This document shows positions 19,880-60,686 of a stretch of 64,000 nucleotides of DNA, in pieces. The translations under genes were made by a program, and so were the position numbers. Where the stretch lies: the NCBI GenBank assembly GCA_017445755.1, contig JAFSSE010000041.1:1-64000 (forward strand), given 5' to 3'. Under the pieces are notes generated by a model. That model searched no databases. It worked only from the letters and a program-made list of their open reading frames with translations, and had not been told where the DNA came from. Origin of the DNA: Bacteroidales bacterium (GTDB lineage: Bacteria; Bacteroidota; Bacteroidia; Bacteroidales; UBA932). Position 1 is the stretch's first letter; each line of letters starts with the position of its first letter.

Positions 19880-19887
19880 CAAAGTTA
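19880..19887 (-). promoter_or_regulatory. Promoter -7 element for tonB
   Basis: It reads TAACTTTG on the minus strand, an exact match to TAnnTTTG, with an ~30-nt leader. Confidence 0.65.
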
Positions 19888-20062
19888 CGTAGAGATTTCG
19901 AAGACGCAAAAACCACTCGAATTTTTAAACTCGCAAAGAAATTTTATAAATGGTTGTTTTTCAATATATTATAAAACCCATAACTAAAATAAAACTCTCA
20001 CCCCCACCCCTTTGTCCTCGCAACTCGAGGTTTTGGCACCCTCCTTGGAAAACGATAATTAC
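19888..20062. other. AT-rich divergent intergenic region
   Basis: This gap lies between the tonB promoter and the operon promoter at 20064-20095. It is AT-rich with a C-rich patch near 20008-20022. I see no further structure. Confidence 0.4.
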
Positions 20063-20063
20063 C

Positions 20064-20095
20064 TTTTGAGGTTTTAAAAATAATGTATAACTTTG
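20064..20095 (+). promoter_or_regulatory. Promoter of the phosphatase/kinase/alarmone operon
   Basis: A complete Bacteroidetes promoter: -33 TTTTG (20064-20068), a 19-nt spacer and -7 TAACTTTG (20088-20095). The leader is about 50 nt before ATG 20150. Confidence 0.75.
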
Positions 20096-20149
20096 AACTT
20101 GGAAGCACGTCTGACGCGTTTCTGTTTGGGACAAAAAAAACAAAATGCC

Positions 20150-20701
20150 ATGAACGCAATTAAAAAAACAATCGCGGTCCTTTTTCTTGCCGCAATCCCT
20201 TTTTTATCTTCAGCACAAAAATCAAAGATTCCCCAGAGGAATGAAATAATAACGGTCACCTCCGGAGAGGAAGGAGTGGAGGAAACCCTCGAGGTCTTCA
20301 ACATGCCGGAAGGCGACAAAAACAACTACTTCCTTTCAGTAGGCCATCTCGGCTTCGGCGACGAGGTCGTTCAGGTTCTTTTCGACCCGATCTTCGAACT
20401 GTTCATTCCCCTTGGAGAAACTCTCGAAGAGGCCCAGGAAACCCTTCTTAAGCTCCAGGCGCTTTACAAGGAGGCCCCCGGAACAAGTATCGAAACAGAG
20501 GGCTGCCTCGCCTTCGGCTTCCCGACCGAAAAGAGGGAGACGGTAAAGGTTACCTACCGGAAACGCCTGCTTTCGAAGCAGTTGGAGTTCACCTTGGAGA
20601 GGGAGGGATATATCCGTTCCGCATATGTGAACAAGAGCGACTTTGGCGCCATTGTCAGCGGAGTGAAGTTCTATCGCAAGATACACCCGAAACAAAAATG
20701 A
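20150..20701 (+). CDS. Secreted protein of unknown function, first gene of the signalling operon
   Basis: 183 residues. A signal peptide (MNAIKKTIAVLFLAAIPFLSSAQ) precedes a small globular domain with alternating beta-strand and acidic segments (ETLEVFNMPEGDKNNYFLSV, GFPTEKRETVKVTYRKRLL). I do not recognise the family. I start at ATG 20150 rather than 20093, because the longer form adds a non-signal extension that begins inside the promoter. The stop overlaps the next start (ATGA), so it is translationally coupled to the phosphatase gene. Confidence 0.78.
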   Translation: MNAIKKTIAVLFLAAIPFLSSAQKSKIPQRNEIITVTSGEEGVEETLEVFNMPEGDKNNYFLSVGHLGFGDEVVQVLFDPIFELFIPLGETLEEAQETLLKLQALYKEAPGTSIETEGCLAFGFPTEKRETVKVTYRKRLLSKQLEFTLEREGYIRSAYVNKSDFGAIVSGVKFYRKIHPKQK

Positions 20702-21528
20702 GAGAACTGCCCTCCGGCACGAGGAACGTCCCTTTTGAAGGGATAGAAAACGCCCGGGACCTCGGGGGTCTCAGAATGCGCGGCGGAAATGTAATCCGTA
20801 AGGATATGCTCATCCGCTCCGGGGAGCTTTCCAGGGCGACGGACGGCGATCTCAAGATTCTCTCTGACAGGTTCATGCTCAGCGATATTTTCGACTTCCG
20901 CTTTGACGCGGAAGTCGAATCGGCAAGGGATAAGGTGGGTGACGGCGTGCGTTACACCCGCCTTTCAACTCTTCCGGAGGTGCTTGTGAACGGGTTTTCC
21001 GACGGAAGGGCCGACAGTGAAAAGATAAAGTCGGAAGATTTTACGGCTCAGCTGGTCTCCTTCGCTTTTAATCCAAAGGCGCAGGAACTTTCCCGCCAGA
21101 TGTATCCCCTGACTGTGTCAGACACAACCTCGCAGCGCCTTTACGGGGAGTTTCTCCGGGGGGTGCTAAAGGCGGAGGGCGGATCGCTGTGGCACTGTTC
21201 CCAGGGTAAGGACAGGGCCGGATGGGGAACGGCCTTCCTTCTTGCGGCCCTCGGCGCCGAAAGAGGGACCATTGTGGAGGATTTTGCCCTTTCTAACATC
21301 AGCTATGCTCCGGTTGTGGAACAATTGTCCGAAAAGGTCCTTCAGAAGGGCGGCGGCGAAAATGAGCTTCGCTTCATCCGAAGCATGGCCGGGGTCAGCG
21401 TAGAGAACTTCGAGAGGGGGCTCGATCTCATCGATGAAAGATTCGGAGGGATGGATGTTTACATCGAAAAAGCCCTCGGCTTTTCATCGGACATGAAGAA
21501 ACAATTAAGAATCAAATACTTGGAATAA
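20698..21528 (+). CDS. Tyrosine/dual-specificity protein phosphatase-like (Y_phosphatase3)
   Basis: 276 residues, probably cytoplasmic. The signature HCSQGKDRAGWG (166-177) is the Cys-x5-Arg loop of this family (usual form HCxxGKDRTG), with Cys167 the nucleophile and Arg173 the phosphate binder. The N-terminal IENARDLGGLRMRGG and LIRSGELSRAT stretches are also typical. Homologues dephosphorylate phosphotyrosine and in some cases phosphoinositides or other phosphoesters; the substrate here is unknown. It overlaps its neighbours on both sides by 4 and 1 nt. The next gene encodes an APH-fold kinase, which suggests, but does not prove, an opposing pair. Confidence 0.88.
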   Translation: MRELPSGTRNVPFEGIENARDLGGLRMRGGNVIRKDMLIRSGELSRATDGDLKILSDRFMLSDIFDFRFDAEVESARDKVGDGVRYTRLSTLPEVLVNGFSDGRADSEKIKSEDFTAQLVSFAFNPKAQELSRQMYPLTVSDTTSQRLYGEFLRGVLKAEGGSLWHCSQGKDRAGWGTAFLLAALGAERGTIVEDFALSNISYAPVVEQLSEKVLQKGGGENELRFIRSMAGVSVENFERGLDLIDERFGGMDVYIEKALGFSSDMKKQLRIKYLE

Positions 21529-22391
21529 TGAGCCGGCAGCAGTTCAGGGAAATTGACCTGTCCAAATGGCGTCAGGTAGGAGAAGGGGGTAACGGCAAGA
21601 CCTACATCTGTCCGGATGACCCCGATATTCTCCTTAAGGTAAACAACTCCCGCCTCAGTACGCTGGAGGCGGTGACCAAGGAGTATAATGTCTCCCGGAA
21701 GGTGCAGGAAACAGGGCTGAGCGTTCCCCGGATGAAGGAAATTGTCCGGGTGTCGGGGGTTTATGGAACCATTACGGAGCGCATTGCCGGGAAAAAATCC
21801 CTCTCGAAAATCTGCCATGACTCTCCGGAAAAGACCGAAGAAATGGCGGAATTCCTTTGCGAAAGGGCGAAGGAGCTGTTCTCCAAGGAATGTGACACCG
21901 AGTTCTTCCCCGACAGGAAAAAGCAGCTTCTTTCCGCCCTTGAAAAGGCGACTTTCTTAGGAAAGGAAACCCTCGGGATAATCAGCGCCTTCGCCCGGAA
22001 TATACCCGACTGCACAACCTGTGTCCATGGGGACTTCCAGATGGGGAATCTGATTGTTTCCGGAGACAGGTATTTCTGGATAGACCTGGACCGCTTCGGA
22101 TACGGGGACCCGATGTTCGATATCGGTCACCTTTACCTTCTTTGCAAGGTCTATTCTTCGATGAAAAGGGTCCAGGAGCTGTTCCATATCTCGAAAGAGC
22201 AGTTCGACCGGTTCTGGGACGCCTTCGCGAGGGCTTATACCGGGAAGGATAACCATGAGGAGTTTGACCTTCAGGCGAAGAGGTTCGCCTGTATTGATAT
22301 TATATTGAGGACCCATTTTATGAAACCCACCTTTCTGGAGAAGATGTTTTTCAAAATGCATGTCCGTAAACTTATAGGAGCATTTAAATAA
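21528..22391 (+). CDS. APH-fold small-molecule/protein kinase-like (TIGR02172-like), copy 1
   Basis: 287 residues with the aminoglycoside/choline phosphotransferase fold. There is a glycine-rich start (VGEGGNGKTYICPDD), a catalytic loop VHGDFQMGN (166-174) with the Asp and Asn expected for phosphotransfer, and a DxD-like metal site in WIDLDRFGYGDPMFDIGHL. It resembles the poorly understood TIGR02172 family. The substrate is unknown; antibiotic resistance is unlikely from context. It begins 1 nt inside the phosphatase stop and abuts the synthetase gene without a gap. A paralogue at 24049-24879 lies in the same operon. Confidence 0.83.
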   Translation: MSRQQFREIDLSKWRQVGEGGNGKTYICPDDPDILLKVNNSRLSTLEAVTKEYNVSRKVQETGLSVPRMKEIVRVSGVYGTITERIAGKKSLSKICHDSPEKTEEMAEFLCERAKELFSKECDTEFFPDRKKQLLSALEKATFLGKETLGIISAFARNIPDCTTCVHGDFQMGNLIVSGDRYFWIDLDRFGYGDPMFDIGHLYLLCKVYSSMKRVQELFHISKEQFDRFWDAFARAYTGKDNHEEFDLQAKRFACIDIILRTHFMKPTFLEKMFFKMHVRKLIGAFK

Positions 22392-23471
22392 ATGGATCTA
22401 CACGCTGAAGAGCTGCTTTCGCAGTACAGGTCCCTCAAGGGAACATTTTCAAGCATGGCCGACGGCATTCCGAAGCGGCTGGAGGAGTTTTTCGCCGAGG
22501 CGGGGATAATTGTCGCCGCGGTAGAGCACCGCGTCAAGACCGAGGAGTCACTCAAGGGAAAACTTGCCCTCAAGGGAGGGAAGTACAAGGATATCTTCGA
22601 TATAACCGACCTTGTCGGAATCAGGGTCATAACCTTCTACATTGACGATGTGGACAAGGTGGCTTCAGTACTGGAGCGGCTTTTTGAAATCGACTGGGAA
22701 AACTCTATCGATAAGCGCAAGGTCCATGAAATAGACAGTTTCGGTTACCTTTCACTCCATTATATCTGCCGGATTCCGGAGTCTTCGTGGCATGATCCCG
22801 CATATCCGGATCTGAACAAAATCCGCTTTGAGGTCCAGATGAGAACGGTTCTCCAGCACGCCTGGGCAAACATGAACCATGATACCGGCTATAAGAGCGG
22901 GGTGGAGATTCCAAAGGTGTATCTTAGGAACCTCAGCCGGCTTGCAGGTATGCTGGAACTCGTTGACGACGAGTTCAGCCGCATCCGAAGGGAACTGTCC
23001 GACTACCGGAGGAGGGTCCAGGGGCTCGTCGCCTCCGGAAACCTCTCCGAAGTGGCCCTGGACGGGGATTCATTCCGGAGCTATCTTTCGATCGGGCCTT
23101 TCGACGCCCTTACCAGGAGAATCGCCTCTATCAACCAGGCGGAGGTCCAAAGCGCGGACCTCTCCCCCTTCCTTCCGCTTCTGAAGGCAATGGGCATGGC
23201 TACGCTCGGGGACATCGAGCAGCTTATCCGGGATTACTCGGACGCCGCCTACCAGATCGCCTGTTTCCAGATCGGACTGACCGATCTCGATATCCTTTCC
23301 GCTTCGGTGGCCCCGCAGGATATCTGCACCGCGTTTATACTTAAGAACGGAGGCGGCTCGGCAGGGCTGAAAATGATGCTGGATATCCTCAACGGTCCGT
23401 CCGAAGGCAATTCCGCCATGGCCCGATTCCTCCTGGACCAGGCCAAAGACCTACCTTTCATGAACCAATAG
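22392..23471 (+). CDS. RelA/SpoT-type (p)ppGpp synthetase domain protein
   Basis: 359 residues. The RelA_SpoT synthetase fold occupies about residues 20-170: HRVKTEESLKGK (pyrophosphate donor side), DIFDITDLVGIRVI (66-79), SFGYLSLHY (117-125, where canonical enzymes have GYQSLH) and FEVQMRTVLQHAW (147-159, canonical ExQIRT). It has no HD hydrolase domain and no TGS/ACT, so it is a small-alarmone-synthetase-like protein with an extra ~180-residue C-terminal region I do not recognise. It probably moves pyrophosphate from ATP to GDP/GTP or another acceptor. The HD hydrolase is encoded separately 3 nt downstream, so the two activities of a Rel protein appear split. Confidence 0.85.
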   Translation: MDLHAEELLSQYRSLKGTFSSMADGIPKRLEEFFAEAGIIVAAVEHRVKTEESLKGKLALKGGKYKDIFDITDLVGIRVITFYIDDVDKVASVLERLFEIDWENSIDKRKVHEIDSFGYLSLHYICRIPESSWHDPAYPDLNKIRFEVQMRTVLQHAWANMNHDTGYKSGVEIPKVYLRNLSRLAGMLELVDDEFSRIRRELSDYRRRVQGLVASGNLSEVALDGDSFRSYLSIGPFDALTRRIASINQAEVQSADLSPFLPLLKAMGMATLGDIEQLIRDYSDAAYQIACFQIGLTDLDILSASVAPQDICTAFILKNGGGSAGLKMMLDILNGPSEGNSAMARFLLDQAKDLPFMNQ

Positions 23472-23474
23472 CTT

Positions 23475-24062
23475 ATGGCAAACAAACCTCTTGACACATC
23501 CCTTCTCGACAGGGCCATTGTATTTGCTGTCCGGGCCCACGGGGGCACAGAACGCCGCGGTAAGGGTTTCCCGTATATAGTCCACCCGATGGAGGCCATG
23601 GAAATCGTGGCCACCATAACCTCCGACCAGGAGCTTCTCGCGGCGGCTGCGCTGCATGACACCGTGGAAGACACTTCCGTAACCGTCGAAGAAATCCGCT
23701 CCGAGTTTGGAGAGAGGATTGCCTCCCTGGTCGCCGCAGAGAGCGATGTCTTCGAAGATGGCGTCAGCGAAGAGGACAGCTGGCATGTGCGGAAGAAGGC
23801 CGCGATAGACCGGCTGGCAAGGGCTTCCCATGACGCCAAGATCGTCGCCCTCGGGGACAAGCTCTCCAACATGAGGGCAATCGCGCGGGACTATGCCCTC
23901 CAGGGTGACGAACTCTGGAATCTCTTCCACGCCAAGGACAGGCGGGACCATGAGTGGCATTACCGGGGACTCGCGGATTCTCTCCGGGAGCTATCGGACA
24001 CTTTTGCATTCAAGGAATTCGAACAACTTATAAACCAGGTATTCAGCCATGGAAGCAATTAA
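23475..24062 (+). CDS. MESH1-like HD hydrolase, probable (p)ppGpp hydrolase
   Basis: 195 residues, the length of stand-alone SpoT-type hydrolases (MESH1/SAH). Metal and catalytic motifs are present in order: YIVHP (His near 36), LHDTVEDT (about 60-67, the HD and ED motifs) and GDKLSNMR (about 128-135, matching ADRLHNMR of Rel/SpoT). The expected reaction is Mn-dependent removal of the 3' pyrophosphate from ppGpp; some homologues act on NADPH or other alarmones. It follows the synthetase by 3 nt and its last 14 nt overlap the next kinase gene, so expression of all three must be linked. Confidence 0.88.
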   Translation: MANKPLDTSLLDRAIVFAVRAHGGTERRGKGFPYIVHPMEAMEIVATITSDQELLAAAALHDTVEDTSVTVEEIRSEFGERIASLVAAESDVFEDGVSEEDSWHVRKKAAIDRLARASHDAKIVALGDKLSNMRAIARDYALQGDELWNLFHAKDRRDHEWHYRGLADSLRELSDTFAFKEFEQLINQVFSHGSN

Positions 24063-24879
24063 AATAAACCTTGACGACTACGTTCTTTCCGGAGGCGGGG
24101 CCAACGGAGACAGTTTCGATCACAAGAGCGACCCTTCGGTCATGCTCAAGCTCTATTTCCCGGGGATCATCAAGCAGCCGCAGGACGAGATGCTTCTTGC
24201 GCGAAAGGTCTATGACGCAGGTATTTCCACCCCTGAACCCGGAGATTTCGTGACTACCGGAGACCGCTACGGCATCCGTTTCAAGCGTATCGTCGGGAAG
24301 AAATCCTATTCAAGGGCTACCGCTGACAACCCGGAAAAAGTCGGACAATATGCCGCCGAATTTGCCAAGATGTGCCGCGACCTGCATGAAACCAGGGTGG
24401 ATACATCGATTTTCGAGAATGTCAAGGACCGCTATTTCCGCCTACTGGAGGAGAATCCTTTCTTCACCACCGTGGAAAAGGACAAACTTGGGAAATTCAT
24501 AGCGGATGTCCCCGATGAGGACACCGCCGTCCACGGGGATCTCCAGTTCAGCAACGCCATCTTCGTCGGGGACAAGAGGTATTTCATCGACCTCGGGGAC
24601 TTCTGTTACGGAAACCACCTCTTCGATGTCGCCATGGTCTATCTCTGCTGCTGCCTTGACGGTGAGCCCTTTATCATGGAAACCTTCCATATGCATAAGG
24701 ATCTCGCCGTACGCTTCTGGCAGGAGTTCGCCCCGGTATATTTCGGAGCGGACAGGCCGCTCTCGGACATCGAGGAAGAAATCGCTCCTTTCGCGGGGCT
24801 TAAGACGCTCATTATTGAGCGCGACACCCGACGGCCCATGCCGGAATTCCGCGCCGCACTTGACAGCATCCTGAAATGA
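24049..24879 (+). CDS. APH-fold kinase-like (TIGR02172-like), copy 2
   Basis: 276 residues, similar in layout to 21528-22391 but clearly diverged. It has the start LSGGGANGDSFDHKSDPSVM, the catalytic loop VHGDLQFSN (about 160-168) and FIDLGDFCYGNHLFDVAMVY (about 179-198). The second site reads DLGDF where copy 1 has DLDRF. The active-site Asp and Asn are kept, so it is probably active. It overlaps the HD hydrolase by 14 nt and the SpoIIE gene by 4 nt. The substrate is unknown. Confidence 0.82.
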   Translation: MEAIKINLDDYVLSGGGANGDSFDHKSDPSVMLKLYFPGIIKQPQDEMLLARKVYDAGISTPEPGDFVTTGDRYGIRFKRIVGKKSYSRATADNPEKVGQYAAEFAKMCRDLHETRVDTSIFENVKDRYFRLLEENPFFTTVEKDKLGKFIADVPDEDTAVHGDLQFSNAIFVGDKRYFIDLGDFCYGNHLFDVAMVYLCCCLDGEPFIMETFHMHKDLAVRFWQEFAPVYFGADRPLSDIEEEIAPFAGLKTLIIERDTRRPMPEFRAALDSILK

Positions 24880-27080
24880 AAAGCCATAAATTAAAAGAGG
24901 GAGCTTCGGCAATTAAGGACATTCTCCGGCACTCCGCCGGGATGGGCCTTCTCCTTGTCATTGTCGCAGCTTTGACCCTCGAACTGACCGGTCTCGTCCA
25001 GTACTATTTCTCCAAGAAGGGTATCCGGGAGGAGGCCTCGAGAAGGGCGGAATGCCAGCTGGAAGCCACCCGGCTCCAGATTGTAGATATCGTGGACCAG
25101 GCCGAGAGCGCGGTGAGAAACAGCGTCTGGATTGCGCGCTGGTGCCTTGAAAACACGGACTCCCTCCATGCCGTAGCCAGAAGGATTGTCGAGGACAATC
25201 CGGTTGTCGTGGGCTCCACGGTAGCCCTTGTTGAAGGATATGACAAGAAGCATCCCCTCCTTGCACCATACGCCTGTCGGGAAGACGGAAATGTTATCAT
25301 AAAATCCCTTGCGACAGAAGAATACAACTATCCAGCGCAGGAATGGTTTACCCGTCCCATTGAGCTGGACGAGGGGTACTGGTCTGAGCCGTATGTTGAT
25401 ATCGGCGGCGGAGATATCCTGATGACGACCTATTCCATGCCGGTTCATGACGCCGCAGGGCGGATTGCCGCCGTCCTTACCGCGGACATTTCCCTCGACT
25501 GGCTGAGAGAGGTTGTCGGAGGTGCGCAGATTTACCCGAATGCCTTCGGCGTTGTCCTAAGCCGGGAGGGCCAGCTCATGGTAAGTCCGGCCGAATCCCT
25601 CAATATGCGCTCTTCCATCAATGATTTCAGCTCTCAGGCCGAAGACCGGCGTGCTTTTGACAGCTTAAGCCGCTCGATGCTCTCCGGAAGGTCCGGAAAC
25701 ATGCCTTTCAAGGCGGCGGGGAAGAAGAGCCAGGTCTATTTCGCCCCGGTTGAAAAGACCGGCTGGTCAATGTCCATTGTCATTCCGGAAGATGAAATTT
25801 ACAGCGGAATCAAGAATGTAGGACTTCTCGTAACGATTCTCCAGTTAATCGGAGTCGGACTCCTTATCCTTATCCTTTACGCCGTCGCAAAGAGCCAGAT
25901 GAAATACAGGGAAATCAGCGACAAGAAGGAGAGGATGGAAAGCGAGCTCCAGATTGGCCGCGGCATCCAGATGTCTATGATTCCCAATATCTTCCCGCCC
26001 TTCCCGGAGCGGAGGGACATCGACATGTCCGCCTGCCTTGTTCCGGCGAAGGAAGTTGGAGGAGACCTTTATGACTTTTATATCAGGGACGAAAAGCTCT
26101 ATTTCTGCATCGGAGACGTGAGCGGGAAGGGCGTTCCGGCTTCGCTCGTTATGGCAGTCACGCGCAGTCTCTTCCGCACGGTTTCGGCCCATGAAAAGAG
26201 CCCCCAGCGCATTGTGACGGCGATGAACGACTCGATGTCGGATATGAACGAAAGCAGTATGTTTGTCACCTTCTTCTGCGGCATTCTCGACCTTTCGACG
26301 GGCCATCTCCGCTATTGCAACGCCGGACACAATCCGCCCTTTATCTTTACCGACAAGATTGCAAAGCTGGATGTAGTTCCAAATCTCCCGCTCGGGATCG
26401 CATCGGGAATGTCCTTCCAGGAGCAGGAAACCGACCTCTCCTATGACGACTCCCTCTTCCTCTATACCGATGGGCTCACAGAGGCGGAGAACCTCTCCCA
26501 CGAGCAGTTTGGAGAGGCGCGGCTCGAAGCCATCCTCCACGTCAGAAGGAGCGCCCAGGGGCAGATGGATGCAGTCCGGGAAGCGGTCGAGGTGTTCGTC
26601 GATGGCGCACCCCAGAGCGATGACCTTACCATGCTATTTATCCACTACCTGAACGACAAACGGCCGGACTCCAGCGAGCGCCACCTGATTCTCCACAACG
26701 ATATCCAGCAGATTCCTCAGCTGGCGGATTTTGTAGAGACCATCGCCCAGGAAAAAACTCTGGATCAGGGACTTGTAATGGGTCTCAACCTGGCTCTCGA
26801 GGAGGCGGTCACAAATGTTATCCTCTATGCCTACCCTAAGGGCTCCGACGGGCTTGTGGATGTTGAGGCCATACTTGGCAAAAACCGTATTGACTTCATT
26901 ATTTCCGACAGCGGGACCCCTTTCGATCCCACCGCCGCGGCGGAGCCGGATCTCAACGCCCCGGTCCAGGACAGGCCTATCGGAGGGCTTGGAATCCATC
27001 TGGTAAAGACCATTATGGACAGCGTTTCATACCAGCGGAGCGATGGAAAGAATATTTTGACAATGATAAAAAAAATATAA
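24876..27080 (+). CDS. Membrane sensor phosphatase: Cache domain, SpoIIE/PP2C and HATPase fusion
   Basis: 734 residues. Membrane segments at about 21-45 and 315-338 bracket a periplasmic Cache-like sensor region (45-310). The cytoplasmic part starts with a helical linker (DKKERMESELQIGRGIQMSM), then a SpoIIE/RsbU-type PP2C domain (about 370-595) with VGGDLYD, GDVSGKGVPASL, CNAGHNPP, LYTDGLTEAEN and QSDDLTML, which keep the metal-binding Asp residues. Residues 605-734 form an RsbW-type HATPase with the N-box LALEEAVTNVI and GGLGIHLVKTI. The protein thus carries both the phosphatase and the kinase expected to act on a STAS partner, encoded 3 nt downstream. Confidence 0.9.
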   Translation: MKSHKLKEGASAIKDILRHSAGMGLLLVIVAALTLELTGLVQYYFSKKGIREEASRRAECQLEATRLQIVDIVDQAESAVRNSVWIARWCLENTDSLHAVARRIVEDNPVVVGSTVALVEGYDKKHPLLAPYACREDGNVIIKSLATEEYNYPAQEWFTRPIELDEGYWSEPYVDIGGGDILMTTYSMPVHDAAGRIAAVLTADISLDWLREVVGGAQIYPNAFGVVLSREGQLMVSPAESLNMRSSINDFSSQAEDRRAFDSLSRSMLSGRSGNMPFKAAGKKSQVYFAPVEKTGWSMSIVIPEDEIYSGIKNVGLLVTILQLIGVGLLILILYAVAKSQMKYREISDKKERMESELQIGRGIQMSMIPNIFPPFPERRDIDMSACLVPAKEVGGDLYDFYIRDEKLYFCIGDVSGKGVPASLVMAVTRSLFRTVSAHEKSPQRIVTAMNDSMSDMNESSMFVTFFCGILDLSTGHLRYCNAGHNPPFIFTDKIAKLDVVPNLPLGIASGMSFQEQETDLSYDDSLFLYTDGLTEAENLSHEQFGEARLEAILHVRRSAQGQMDAVREAVEVFVDGAPQSDDLTMLFIHYLNDKRPDSSERHLILHNDIQQIPQLADFVETIAQEKTLDQGLVMGLNLALEEAVTNVILYAYPKGSDGLVDVEAILGKNRIDFIISDSGTPFDPTAAAEPDLNAPVQDRPIGGLGIHLVKTIMDSVSYQRSDGKNILTMIKKI

Positions 27081-27083
27081 ATC

Positions 27084-27389
27084 ATGGAAATTAAGACAAG
27101 TAAGGAAAACTCCGTCCTGACGGCCCGGCTGATCGGCCGGCTGGACACTCCCGCCTCCCAGGAAATCGCGCCGCAGATGAACGCCCTCGCCGAAGAGGCC
27201 GATGGAACAATTGTTCTCGATTGCACTGAGCTGAATTATATTTCGAGCTCCGGACTCCGGCTTTTCCTGACCCTTAGGAAGGCCGCAGGCGCCAAGGGAG
27301 GGAAGATTATAGTTAAAGGTATAAGCAACGATATCCGGACCGTCTTTATGATGACCGGCTTCCTGAACCTGTTCCAAATTGAAGAATAA
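27084..27389 (+). CDS. STAS-domain anti-anti-sigma-like protein
   Basis: 101 residues, a single STAS domain of the SpoIIAA/RsbV class. The phosphorylation loop is YISSSGLR (52-59), where Ser55 or Ser56 is the expected site. In partner switching the unphosphorylated form binds the HATPase kinase and frees its target. It is the probable substrate of the upstream SpoIIE-HATPase protein. No sigma factor is encoded nearby and Bacteroidetes are not known to use sigma-B, so the output is open. Confidence 0.9.
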   Translation: MEIKTSKENSVLTARLIGRLDTPASQEIAPQMNALAEEADGTIVLDCTELNYISSSGLRLFLTLRKAAGAKGGKIIVKGISNDIRTVFMMTGFLNLFQIEE

Positions 27390-27411
27390 ACAATTTTTTT
27401 ATATTTCAACA

Positions 27412-28005
27412 ATGAAAAAGATCATTTCACTTCTCGTTGTGATGGTAGCCGCCGGCTCCATCGCTTCTGCTCAGATTGCTCCTCAGGGGTCATCTTACAA
27501 AGAGCTCAAAAACTACTACTCCGCAAAGGATTATGTCAAGAGCGACGCGGATCCGTATTCCGTCTTCTGGACGGGTCTCGAGTCCCTGGCTACCCCGGGT
27601 ATCCCCCACCTTATCATGAAAGAAACAGGCCGTGGATGGACCTTTATCGGCGCCGCCGTGGTTATCGATTTATTTGGACAGAGCGCTGTTAATAAGCTTA
27701 TGAAACAGGTTGAATACAAGGATGGAGAGCTCGTAAAAGACGCCAACGGCAGCATTGTCTTCAATGACGAGGAAAAGGCAAAACAGGCGGCCGGAATGAT
27801 GTTCGGAGCCATCGTTGCCGACCTTGCCCTCAGGATCTGGGCTACTGTTGACGGCGTCAAGGTTGCAAAGGTCAAGAACCAGTATTTCCAGGACCTCCAG
27901 GGAAAGAAGGCCTTCTCCGCCAACCTGTACCCTTCGGTCAACTTCGCCCAGAGCGCGAACGGACTGGCCGCCGCTCCCGGAATGACCTTCGCCCTTACCT
28001 TCTAA
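27412..28005 (+). CDS. Secreted/envelope protein of unknown function
   Basis: 197 residues. A signal peptide (MKKIISLLVVMVAAGSIASAQ) precedes a domain with two hydrophobic stretches (GWTFIGAAVVIDLFGQ, GMMFGAIVADLALRIWATV) and ends in an aromatic residue (MTFALTF), which would suit an outer-membrane or membrane-associated protein. I do not recognise it. I chose ATG 27412 over an upstream TTG at 27379 because it begins the signal peptide. It follows the STAS gene by 22 nt; a TATATTTC box just before the ATG may give it its own nearly leaderless promoter. Confidence 0.78.
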   Translation: MKKIISLLVVMVAAGSIASAQIAPQGSSYKELKNYYSAKDYVKSDADPYSVFWTGLESLATPGIPHLIMKETGRGWTFIGAAVVIDLFGQSAVNKLMKQVEYKDGELVKDANGSIVFNDEEKAKQAAGMMFGAIVADLALRIWATVDGVKVAKVKNQYFQDLQGKKAFSANLYPSVNFAQSANGLAAAPGMTFALTF

Positions 28006-28026: not shown

Positions 28027-28062
28027 ATAGAGGTCGCCTCAAAAAGCGGCCCCTATTTTTTT
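28027..28062 (+). terminator. Terminator ending the 20-28 kb operon
   Basis: ATAGAGGTCGC (28027-28037) pairs with GCGGCCCCTAT (28046-28056), with one mismatch and one G-U, followed by a T-run. It overlaps the 3' end of the convergent dnaE gene. Confidence 0.7.
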
Positions 28063-60634: not shown

Positions 60635-60665
60635 CTTTGTTTTTTCACCGGTATTCCTTACCTTT
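60635..60665 (+). promoter_or_regulatory. Promoter of the RHS-type gene
   Basis: -33 TTTG (60635-60638), a 19-nt spacer and -7 TACCTTTG (60658-60665), then a ~20-nt leader to ATG 60687. Confidence 0.7.
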
Positions 60666-60686
60666 GGTGATTGAGGGTAAAAGTAT

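Follow-up and report, generated by a model that had tools for sequence, protein, structure and literature searches.

Is the level of the alarmone (p)ppGpp set, in some Bacteroidales, by a membrane sensor that acts through a phosphorylatable STAS protein? The question is raised by a 64,000-nucleotide (nt) stretch of a Bacteroidales bacterium (GenBank assembly GCA_017445755.1, contig JAFSSE010000041.1, positions 1 to 64,000 of the forward strand), hereafter the window, which belongs to a 2.18-Mb draft genome that is 83% complete. Seven intact plus-strand open reading frames (ORFs) lie here in a row (20698-27389), each overlapping the next or at most 3 nt away from it: a Y_phosphatase3-type phosphatase (YP3), an APH-fold kinase, a small alarmone synthetase (SAS), a small alarmone hydrolase (SAH), a second APH-fold kinase, a membrane sensor with SpoIIE-type and HATPase domains, and a STAS protein. 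An earlier note on this DNA had described the same row; we found the ORFs intact and the junctions as claimed there, and its family labels were borne out by Pfam and NCBIfam matches.

The earlier note went on to regard all seven genes as one system, the synthetase and hydrolase as a substitute for a single Rel protein, and the sensory phosphorylation of STAS as a switch tied to the alarmone. The last of these ideas is the best reading of a conserved cluster with intact catalytic residues; the first two had to be given up. The cassette is real, conserved and, as far as our literature search reaches, unreported: it is best read as a partner switch with a different output. We consider the chances about even that its membrane sensor sets the phosphorylation of STAS, which would then bind and control the neighbouring SAS.

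A five-gene core in related Bacteroidales

We compared the window with the best 80 of 253 relatives from our scan of named genomes, all of them Bacteroidales or Bacteroidia by title, which gave 81 loci; the cassette carriers among these 80 are related Bacteroidales, mostly from ruminant guts. Gene order was counted in the 64 loci with at least 5 kb of downstream sequence, the other 17 having less than 5 kb. The exact order SAS-SAH-APH-SpoIIE-STAS was present in 52 of the 64, and on the same strand within 7.5 kb we found SAH in 62, the APH-fold kinase in 60, STAS in 60, a SpoIIE-type match in 59 (a stand-alone HATPase in 2 of the 64 loci) and YP3 in 3. Because the largest other neighbour families at the 81 loci have only 16 members (an ion antiporter, judged by eye) and 12 members, in a count that omits ORFs opposite the core genes, the five-gene core stands out. 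Co-occurrence and order in related genomes, which the earlier note had named as a check, thus speak for these five genes.

The same cannot be said of all seven. When we took the 65 loci flanked by 5 kb of sequence to the left and right, the genes close to SAS were SAH (61), APH (58), HATPase (57), STAS (56), PP2C (55) and YP3 (6), with at least one switch part at 58 loci; two kinases were close to SAS only in the window and, divergently, at locus L108. YP3 and the first kinase were accordingly rejected as core parts, and they are optional, accessory genes. This set includes 16 loci (from L139-L144 and L164-L187) chosen because of their low identity or as stretches centred on SAS or SpoIIE, some of which may share species with the other 49, so that its counts are not those of a random sample; the 64-locus order count and the 121-genome co-occurrence given below are less biased.

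Gene order and parts are shuffled across loci while the core set stays together. For example, SpoIIE-STAS stands upstream of SAS in L037, the order is SAS-SAH-SpoIIE-STAS-APH in L053, and the halves of the cassette are divergent in L165, L172 and L175 and convergent in L166. A stand-alone RsbW-like kinase takes the place of the sensor at five loci, giving SAS-SAH-HATPase-STAS with an APH kinase in L068, L105 and L107 and with YP3 in L141 and L173. In L139 and L140, STAS directly follows SAS with neither SAH nor kinase between them, and an MFS transporter gene comes next; these contigs end 1.6 and 3.0 kb past SAS, and because their flanks are near-identical the two loci count as one case. L168 reads SAH-SAS-STAS at a contig end, and the several loci outside the 61 of 65 at which SAH was not seen near SAS include some on short contigs. 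In most loci of L034-L113 the cassette has other flanking genes, although its five core genes remain side by side, as if it moved as a block.

SAS was present in 100 of 299 sampled genomes of the family, and a phylum sample of 296 genomes contained SAS relatives in 11 other genomes. Around these 11 and three divergent loci of the same family (L125-L138), profile hidden Markov models found no neighbouring gene for SAH, APH, PP2C, HATPase, STAS or YP3; of the 14 stretches searched, four are shorter than 10 kb.

The synthetase and the proposed switch

The SAS (359 amino acids (aa), 22392..23471, +) consists of a RelQ/RelP-like catalytic domain (residues ~1-204) and a helical C-terminal domain (~204-359). 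PF04607 (RelA_SpoT) is the sole Pfam family matched (2e-17, 64.1 bits against a cut-off of 27), and the chain has no HD domain. Active-site residues R47, K49, D73, Y119, H123, E147, Q149 and R151 were invariant in 43 aligned sequences, in which S53 and K57 were nearly so; the eight invariant residues belong to the ATP and GDP/GTP sites. The structure model had a predicted local distance difference test score (pLDDT) of 92, and 93 in the C-terminal domain (23001..23468, +), which is possibly a docking or regulatory domain. For this domain, no Foldseek match in the PDB was better than E 2.6, and sequence identity was 34-78% inside the family compared with 13-21% in 11 outgroup rows. Pfam gave no TPR match there, an absence that is compatible with TPR repeats. 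The window SAS shares its catalytic fold and active-site residues with RelQ and RelP, but the solved chains align only within its residues 1-209. Its score with the NCBIfam model GTPPhKinYjbM (RelQ) was 59.1 bits, below the cut-off of 320, and the RelQ motifs EFVT and LAMNFWAT, listed in the available part of PMC10434055, are absent by eye.

All parts of a partner switch are present, namely a PP2C phosphatase, a GHKL kinase and a STAS protein with a conserved phospho-acceptor. The first two are domains of the sensor (734 aa, 24876..27080, +), a dCache-PP2C/SpoIIE-HATPase (RsbW-like) membrane protein that matches SpoIIE (PF07228, 2e-50), HATPase_c_2 (PF13581, 9e-28), MCP-like_PDC_1 and dCache_1, with PF22673 among its families. 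In an alignment of 122 rows, of which the uncounted ones are fragments or other domains, its catalytic residues were invariant in ungapped rows: D397 and D414 (69/69), D532, D582 and D583 (66/66), N647 (71/71), and D678, G704 and G706 (70/70). The STAS protein (101 aa, 27084..27389, +) resembles anti-sigma antagonists (PF01740, E 3e-16; TIGR00377), and its likely phospho-acceptor Ser55 was kept in 91/91 sequences; some of the loci behind the residue counts for STAS, PP2C, HATPase, SAH and kinase lack SAS. The counterpart of Ser55 in SpoIIAA is a serine replaced by Ala in chain 1tid_B, which we take to be phospho-Ser58. In the source genome (83% complete), the window STAS was the only STAS match, and the window sensor the only SpoIIE match above the cut-off.

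Two further ORFs from the comparison carry a kinase domain of this type. At L143 (10446-11816), adjoining the cassette, one ORF combines a diacylglycerol-kinase/YegS domain with an RsbW-like HATPase, so that the switch kinase may here be joined to a lipid kinase. At L151 (6246-8006), the gene next to a SpoIIE-STAS pair encodes a MatE transporter fused to HATPase_c_2; SAS was not found in that genome.

SAS and STAS tend to occur in the same genomes. Among 121 genomes of the genus, 67 contained SAS; stand-alone STAS ORFs (those below 260 aa; three of 365-381 aa belong neither here nor to the SulP-size group) were present in 67/67 genomes with SAS compared with 7/54 without it. Strong SpoIIE matches, a count that leaves out those weaker than ~1e-13 (G222, G107, G341, G307, G355 and one of G320), followed the same pattern (66/67 compared with 12/54). 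STAS ORFs of SulP size, used as an internal control, showed the opposite trend (4/67 compared with 28/54). SpoIIE or a stand-alone STAS lay within 6 kb of SAS in 59 of the 67 genomes.

Evolutionary distances were compared at 64 of 101 loci and, for strict gene order, at 40 of 53; the loci dropped from either set lacked a domain or had one that was too short. At the 64 loci, STAS distances followed those of the SAS catalytic half (Spearman 0.74), with a partial rank correlation of 0.46 given SAH, kinase, PP2C and HATPase; those with the other partners were 0.07 (SAH), 0.04 (APH), 0.19 (PP2C) and 0.13 (HATPase). When six partners were modelled, the values for STAS were 0.31 with the catalytic half of SAS, 0.19 with its C-terminal half, 0.18 with PP2C and lower with the others, and the bootstrap preference of STAS for SAS was 0.996 over SAH and 0.97 over the kinase. 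STAS was again closest to the SAS catalytic half at the 40 loci (0.33), where SAH and kinase co-diverged as well (partial 0.46); with six partners in the model, the SAH-kinase value was 0.33. Positive controls, domains of the same protein, gave 0.74 and 0.54. In the usual order, SAS and STAS mark the two ends of the core, so that linkage by itself would favour the genes in between. From these distances we infer that the cassette may pair SAS with STAS and SAH with the kinase, the sensor being exchangeable.

In the mechanism that we propose, a periplasmic ligand would change the relative activities of the sensor's HATPase kinase and PP2C phosphatase, and STAS would be dephosphorylated at Ser55, as the conserved residues suggest. 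Free STAS would then dock on SAS, perhaps on its C-terminal domain, and raise (p)ppGpp synthesis, while SAH, often with its partner APH-fold kinase, would erase the signal and bring the level back to the base line. Docking site and sign of control are the weakest steps: unphosphorylated STAS is proposed as the activator because of the analogy with SiaC-SiaD described below, the sign could be the opposite, and the site may lie in the catalytic half.

Hydrolase, kinases and flanking sequence

The SAH (195 aa, 23475..24062, +) is of MESH1/HD_4 type (HD_4, E 7e-21), with chains 7qoe, 4yf1 and 7qoc as its best PDB matches. Its HD metal site and ED/DxxxN motifs are present, and among 95 rows H37 was kept in 95/95 ungapped rows, H61, D62, E65 and D66 in 94/94, and D128 and N132 in 92/92. 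The kinase of the core, APH-fold kinase 2 (276 aa, 24049..24879, +), is TIGR02172-like, scoring 217 bits, just under the cut-off of 228.2; HGD(162-164), N169 and D181 were present in 87/87 ungapped rows of 88. SAH and kinase are fused at six loci (L142, L143, L172, L175, L177 and L186), two of which (L142 and L143) were confirmed by Pfam. APH-fold kinase 1 (287 aa, 21528..22391, +), outside the conserved core, exceeds the same cut-off (TIGR02172, 247 bits). TIGR02172 is named nowhere among the literature matches listed, a search whose scope excludes subscription papers and preprints; the SAH-kinase fusion gives these kinases a testable role.

The YP3 (276 aa, 20698..21528, +; PF13350, E 4e-51) has an HC-x-x-GKDR active site, in which H166, C167, K171, D172 and R173 were conserved in 10/10 sequences. 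Where its gene is close to SAS, its position varies, before SAS in L141 and after STAS in L064, L100 and L173. Near the cassette of L077 (14962-17068, -), a separate group consists of an APH-fold kinase, a Y_phosphatase3 and an SAH that is 63% identical to the window SAH, without a synthetase of its own, hinting that these three genes form their own unit.

The source genome also encodes a long Rel of 674 aa, which by eye has intact-looking HD, synthetase, TGS and ACT regions, and a RelA-like protein of 715 aa, in which the HD motif reads HE by eye. The view that synthetase and hydrolase stand instead of one Rel was rejected on this ground, and because of these two long RelA/SpoT homologue (RSH) ORFs the cassette is an addition to Rel. 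For Bacteroidia, a survey of RSH proteins (PMC3153485) records long Rel and RshB; SpoIIE is absent from the part of its text available.

The seven genes are tightly packed: YP3 and kinase 1 overlap by 1 nt, kinase 1 and SAS abut (0 nt), SAS and SAH are 3 nt apart, SAH and kinase 2 overlap by 14 nt, kinase 2 and the sensor gene overlap by 4 nt, and 3 nt separate the latter from STAS. Upstream, a small ORF (183 aa, 20150..20701, +) overlaps the YP3 gene by 4 nt, and downstream of STAS lies another (197 aa, 27412..28005, +). Both have a signal-peptide-like N terminus by eye, neither matched Pfam or NCBIfam, and both are optional neighbours, with relatives of the 183-aa ORF at 7 other loci. A match to TTTG-N19-TAnnTTTG, which we take to be the Bacteroidota promoter consensus, lies at 20065..20095 (+) and is the likely start of the transcription unit. 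The consensus matched three times in the 64 kb compared with 0.59 expected (19880-19910, -; 20065-20095, +; 60636-60666, +), and two of these matches stand back to back in the divergent gap between a TonB-type gene (by eye) and the operon. A terminator-like hairpin with a T-run (28032..28051, +) is a possible end, weak by itself given 10 such hairpins in the scanned region compared with 11.6 expected. Promoter match and hairpin together suggest, at the level of sequence, one transcription unit that includes both small ORFs. Pfam and NCBIfam found neither a GGDEF cyclase nor a sigma factor among the nine ORFs scanned (20093-28005), the search for a sigma factor being confined to these ORFs.

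Rival readings and relation to known systems

Several observations weigh against control of SAS by STAS. No switch part was near SAS at 7 of the 65 loci (L059, L089, L094, L142, L144, L169 and L187), and neither SpoIIE nor STAS lay within 6 kb of SAS in 8 of the 67 genomes with SAS, some of which may be accounted for by short contigs. STAS is tied to SpoIIE as closely as to SAS (73 of 78 genomes with SpoIIE have STAS; both occur in 73 genomes and one alone in 5 and 1), and part of the STAS-SAS association may for this reason run via SpoIIE. At L163 (2236-7947), SpoIIE and STAS stand beside LuxE- and LuxC/AMP-binding-type genes in a genome in which SAS was not found, possibly another output of the same switch. 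The genomes are related and often incomplete, so that the counts are not independent and Fisher values should not be taken at face value. As for co-divergence, the bootstrap preference for SAS over PP2C, 0.94, is not decisive, and the C-terminal half of SAS is not singled out at the 40 loci (0.11, P = 0.09). Mere neighbours, APH2 and PP2C, reached the same level (0.34) as SAS and STAS (0.33), and STAS and HATPase, a pair expected to touch, were not significantly correlated (0.10), which indicates that the method misses real partners.

Some of these observations would fit co-location without contact, that is, stress genes gathered in one regulated cassette with an unlinked STAS target. Within the genus, 40 of 96 stand-alone STAS and 91 of 146 SpoIIE matches were not within 6 kb of SAS, and the genes flanking the cassette vary. 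However, the core genes remain grouped despite the many changes of order and strand and the splitting or fusion of parts, STAS accompanied SAS in 67/67 genomes, and the source genome, 83% complete, yielded no second STAS system; we regard this explanation as rather unlikely. It is also unlikely that the switch acts on SAH or the APH-fold kinase, so that the sensor controls alarmone breakdown. SAH is indeed the most constant neighbour of SAS (61/65), it is fused to the kinase at 6 loci and co-diverges with it at the partial values given above, and E. coli Rsd, freed from phospho-HPr, tilts SpoT to hydrolysis in the available passages of PMC7581894. On the other hand, L139 and L140 have SAS and then STAS with no SAH or kinase nearby, and the partial correlation of STAS was 0.07 with SAH and 0.04 with the kinase compared with 0.46 with SAS. 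A toxin-antitoxin module, with SAS as a toxSAS, SAH as its antidote and the sensor as trigger, seems somewhat less likely still to us. SAHs are often found with toxic synthetases, according to the part of PMC9765508 available, and ATFaRel is named in that of PMC10434055. The single PADLOC match (PDC-S33, E 1e-14) also speaks for this reading, but it falls on SAS residues 28-159, which are the generic synthetase region, and a defence role is unsupported.

Control of SAS by STAS has its closest counterparts among second-messenger switches. In the co-transcribed siaABCD of Pseudomonas aeruginosa, as in HsbA-HsbD and BgrV-BgrR, a PP2C phosphatase and a kinase together set how far a STAS-type protein is phosphorylated, and in its unphosphorylated state this protein binds a second-messenger synthase and activates it (available passages of PMC7647112, PMC8457831 and PMC7278518); STAS or STAS-like proteins control diguanylate cyclases in SiaC-SiaD, HsbA-HsbD and BgrV-BgrR (PMC8457831, in part). 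The output of SiaABCD is a GGDEF diguanylate cyclase, whereas the synthetase of the window belongs to the RelA_SpoT family and is accompanied by a hydrolase of its own and an APH-fold kinase, and cassettes of the window type usually carry kinase and phosphatase in one Cache protein. RsbU/RsbW/RsbV and SpoIIE/SpoIIAB/SpoIIAA share the PP2C, HATPase and STAS domains and the conserved phospho-serine, but the cassette is without a sigma factor and its phosphatase and kinase are mostly fused.

On the alarmone side, Tde-SAS/Tde-SAH of Treponema denticola (DsRel, ActSpo2) likewise pairs a separate hydrolase with a synthetase that has a C-terminal domain of ~150-180 aa, which brakes synthesis (PMC10434055, in the part available). 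That domain is a TPR, however, the gene tags are 21 apart and no long Rel is present there; PMC10434055 uses neither "operon" nor "neighbor". Rsd-SpoT of E. coli resembles the cassette in that a partner protein, released in a phosphorylation-dependent manner, tunes an alarmone enzyme, but the phospho-carrier is HPr rather than STAS, the target is the long SpoT and the direction is towards hydrolysis (PMC7581894, in part). None of the literature matches listed connects an alarmone synthetase with a STAS/PP2C switch, and the abstracts and passages available contain no SAS switched by a reversible protein-phosphorylation relay.

A fuller version of the proposal would make the cassette the first partner switch with an alarmone output, in which an exchangeable Cache-PP2C-HATPase sensor would read a periplasmic signal and act through phospho-STAS on a dedicated (p)ppGpp synthetase. 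The C-terminal domain of this synthetase would be regulatory and of a new kind, and a hydrolase-kinase pair, at some loci a single fused protein, would erase the signal. Such a cassette would form a third, sensor-driven arm of the stringent response beside the long Rel and the RelA-like protein. We hold this version tentatively, at somewhat below an even chance, because co-divergence does not single out the C-terminal domain. If control of SAS by STAS is true, an external ligand would directly set the alarmone level in these gut bacteria, as SiaABCD sets that of c-di-GMP, and partner switching would be open to nucleotide second messengers in general, rather than a sigma-factor device. For rumen Bacteroidales, it would mean a second, sensor-driven route into the stress response.

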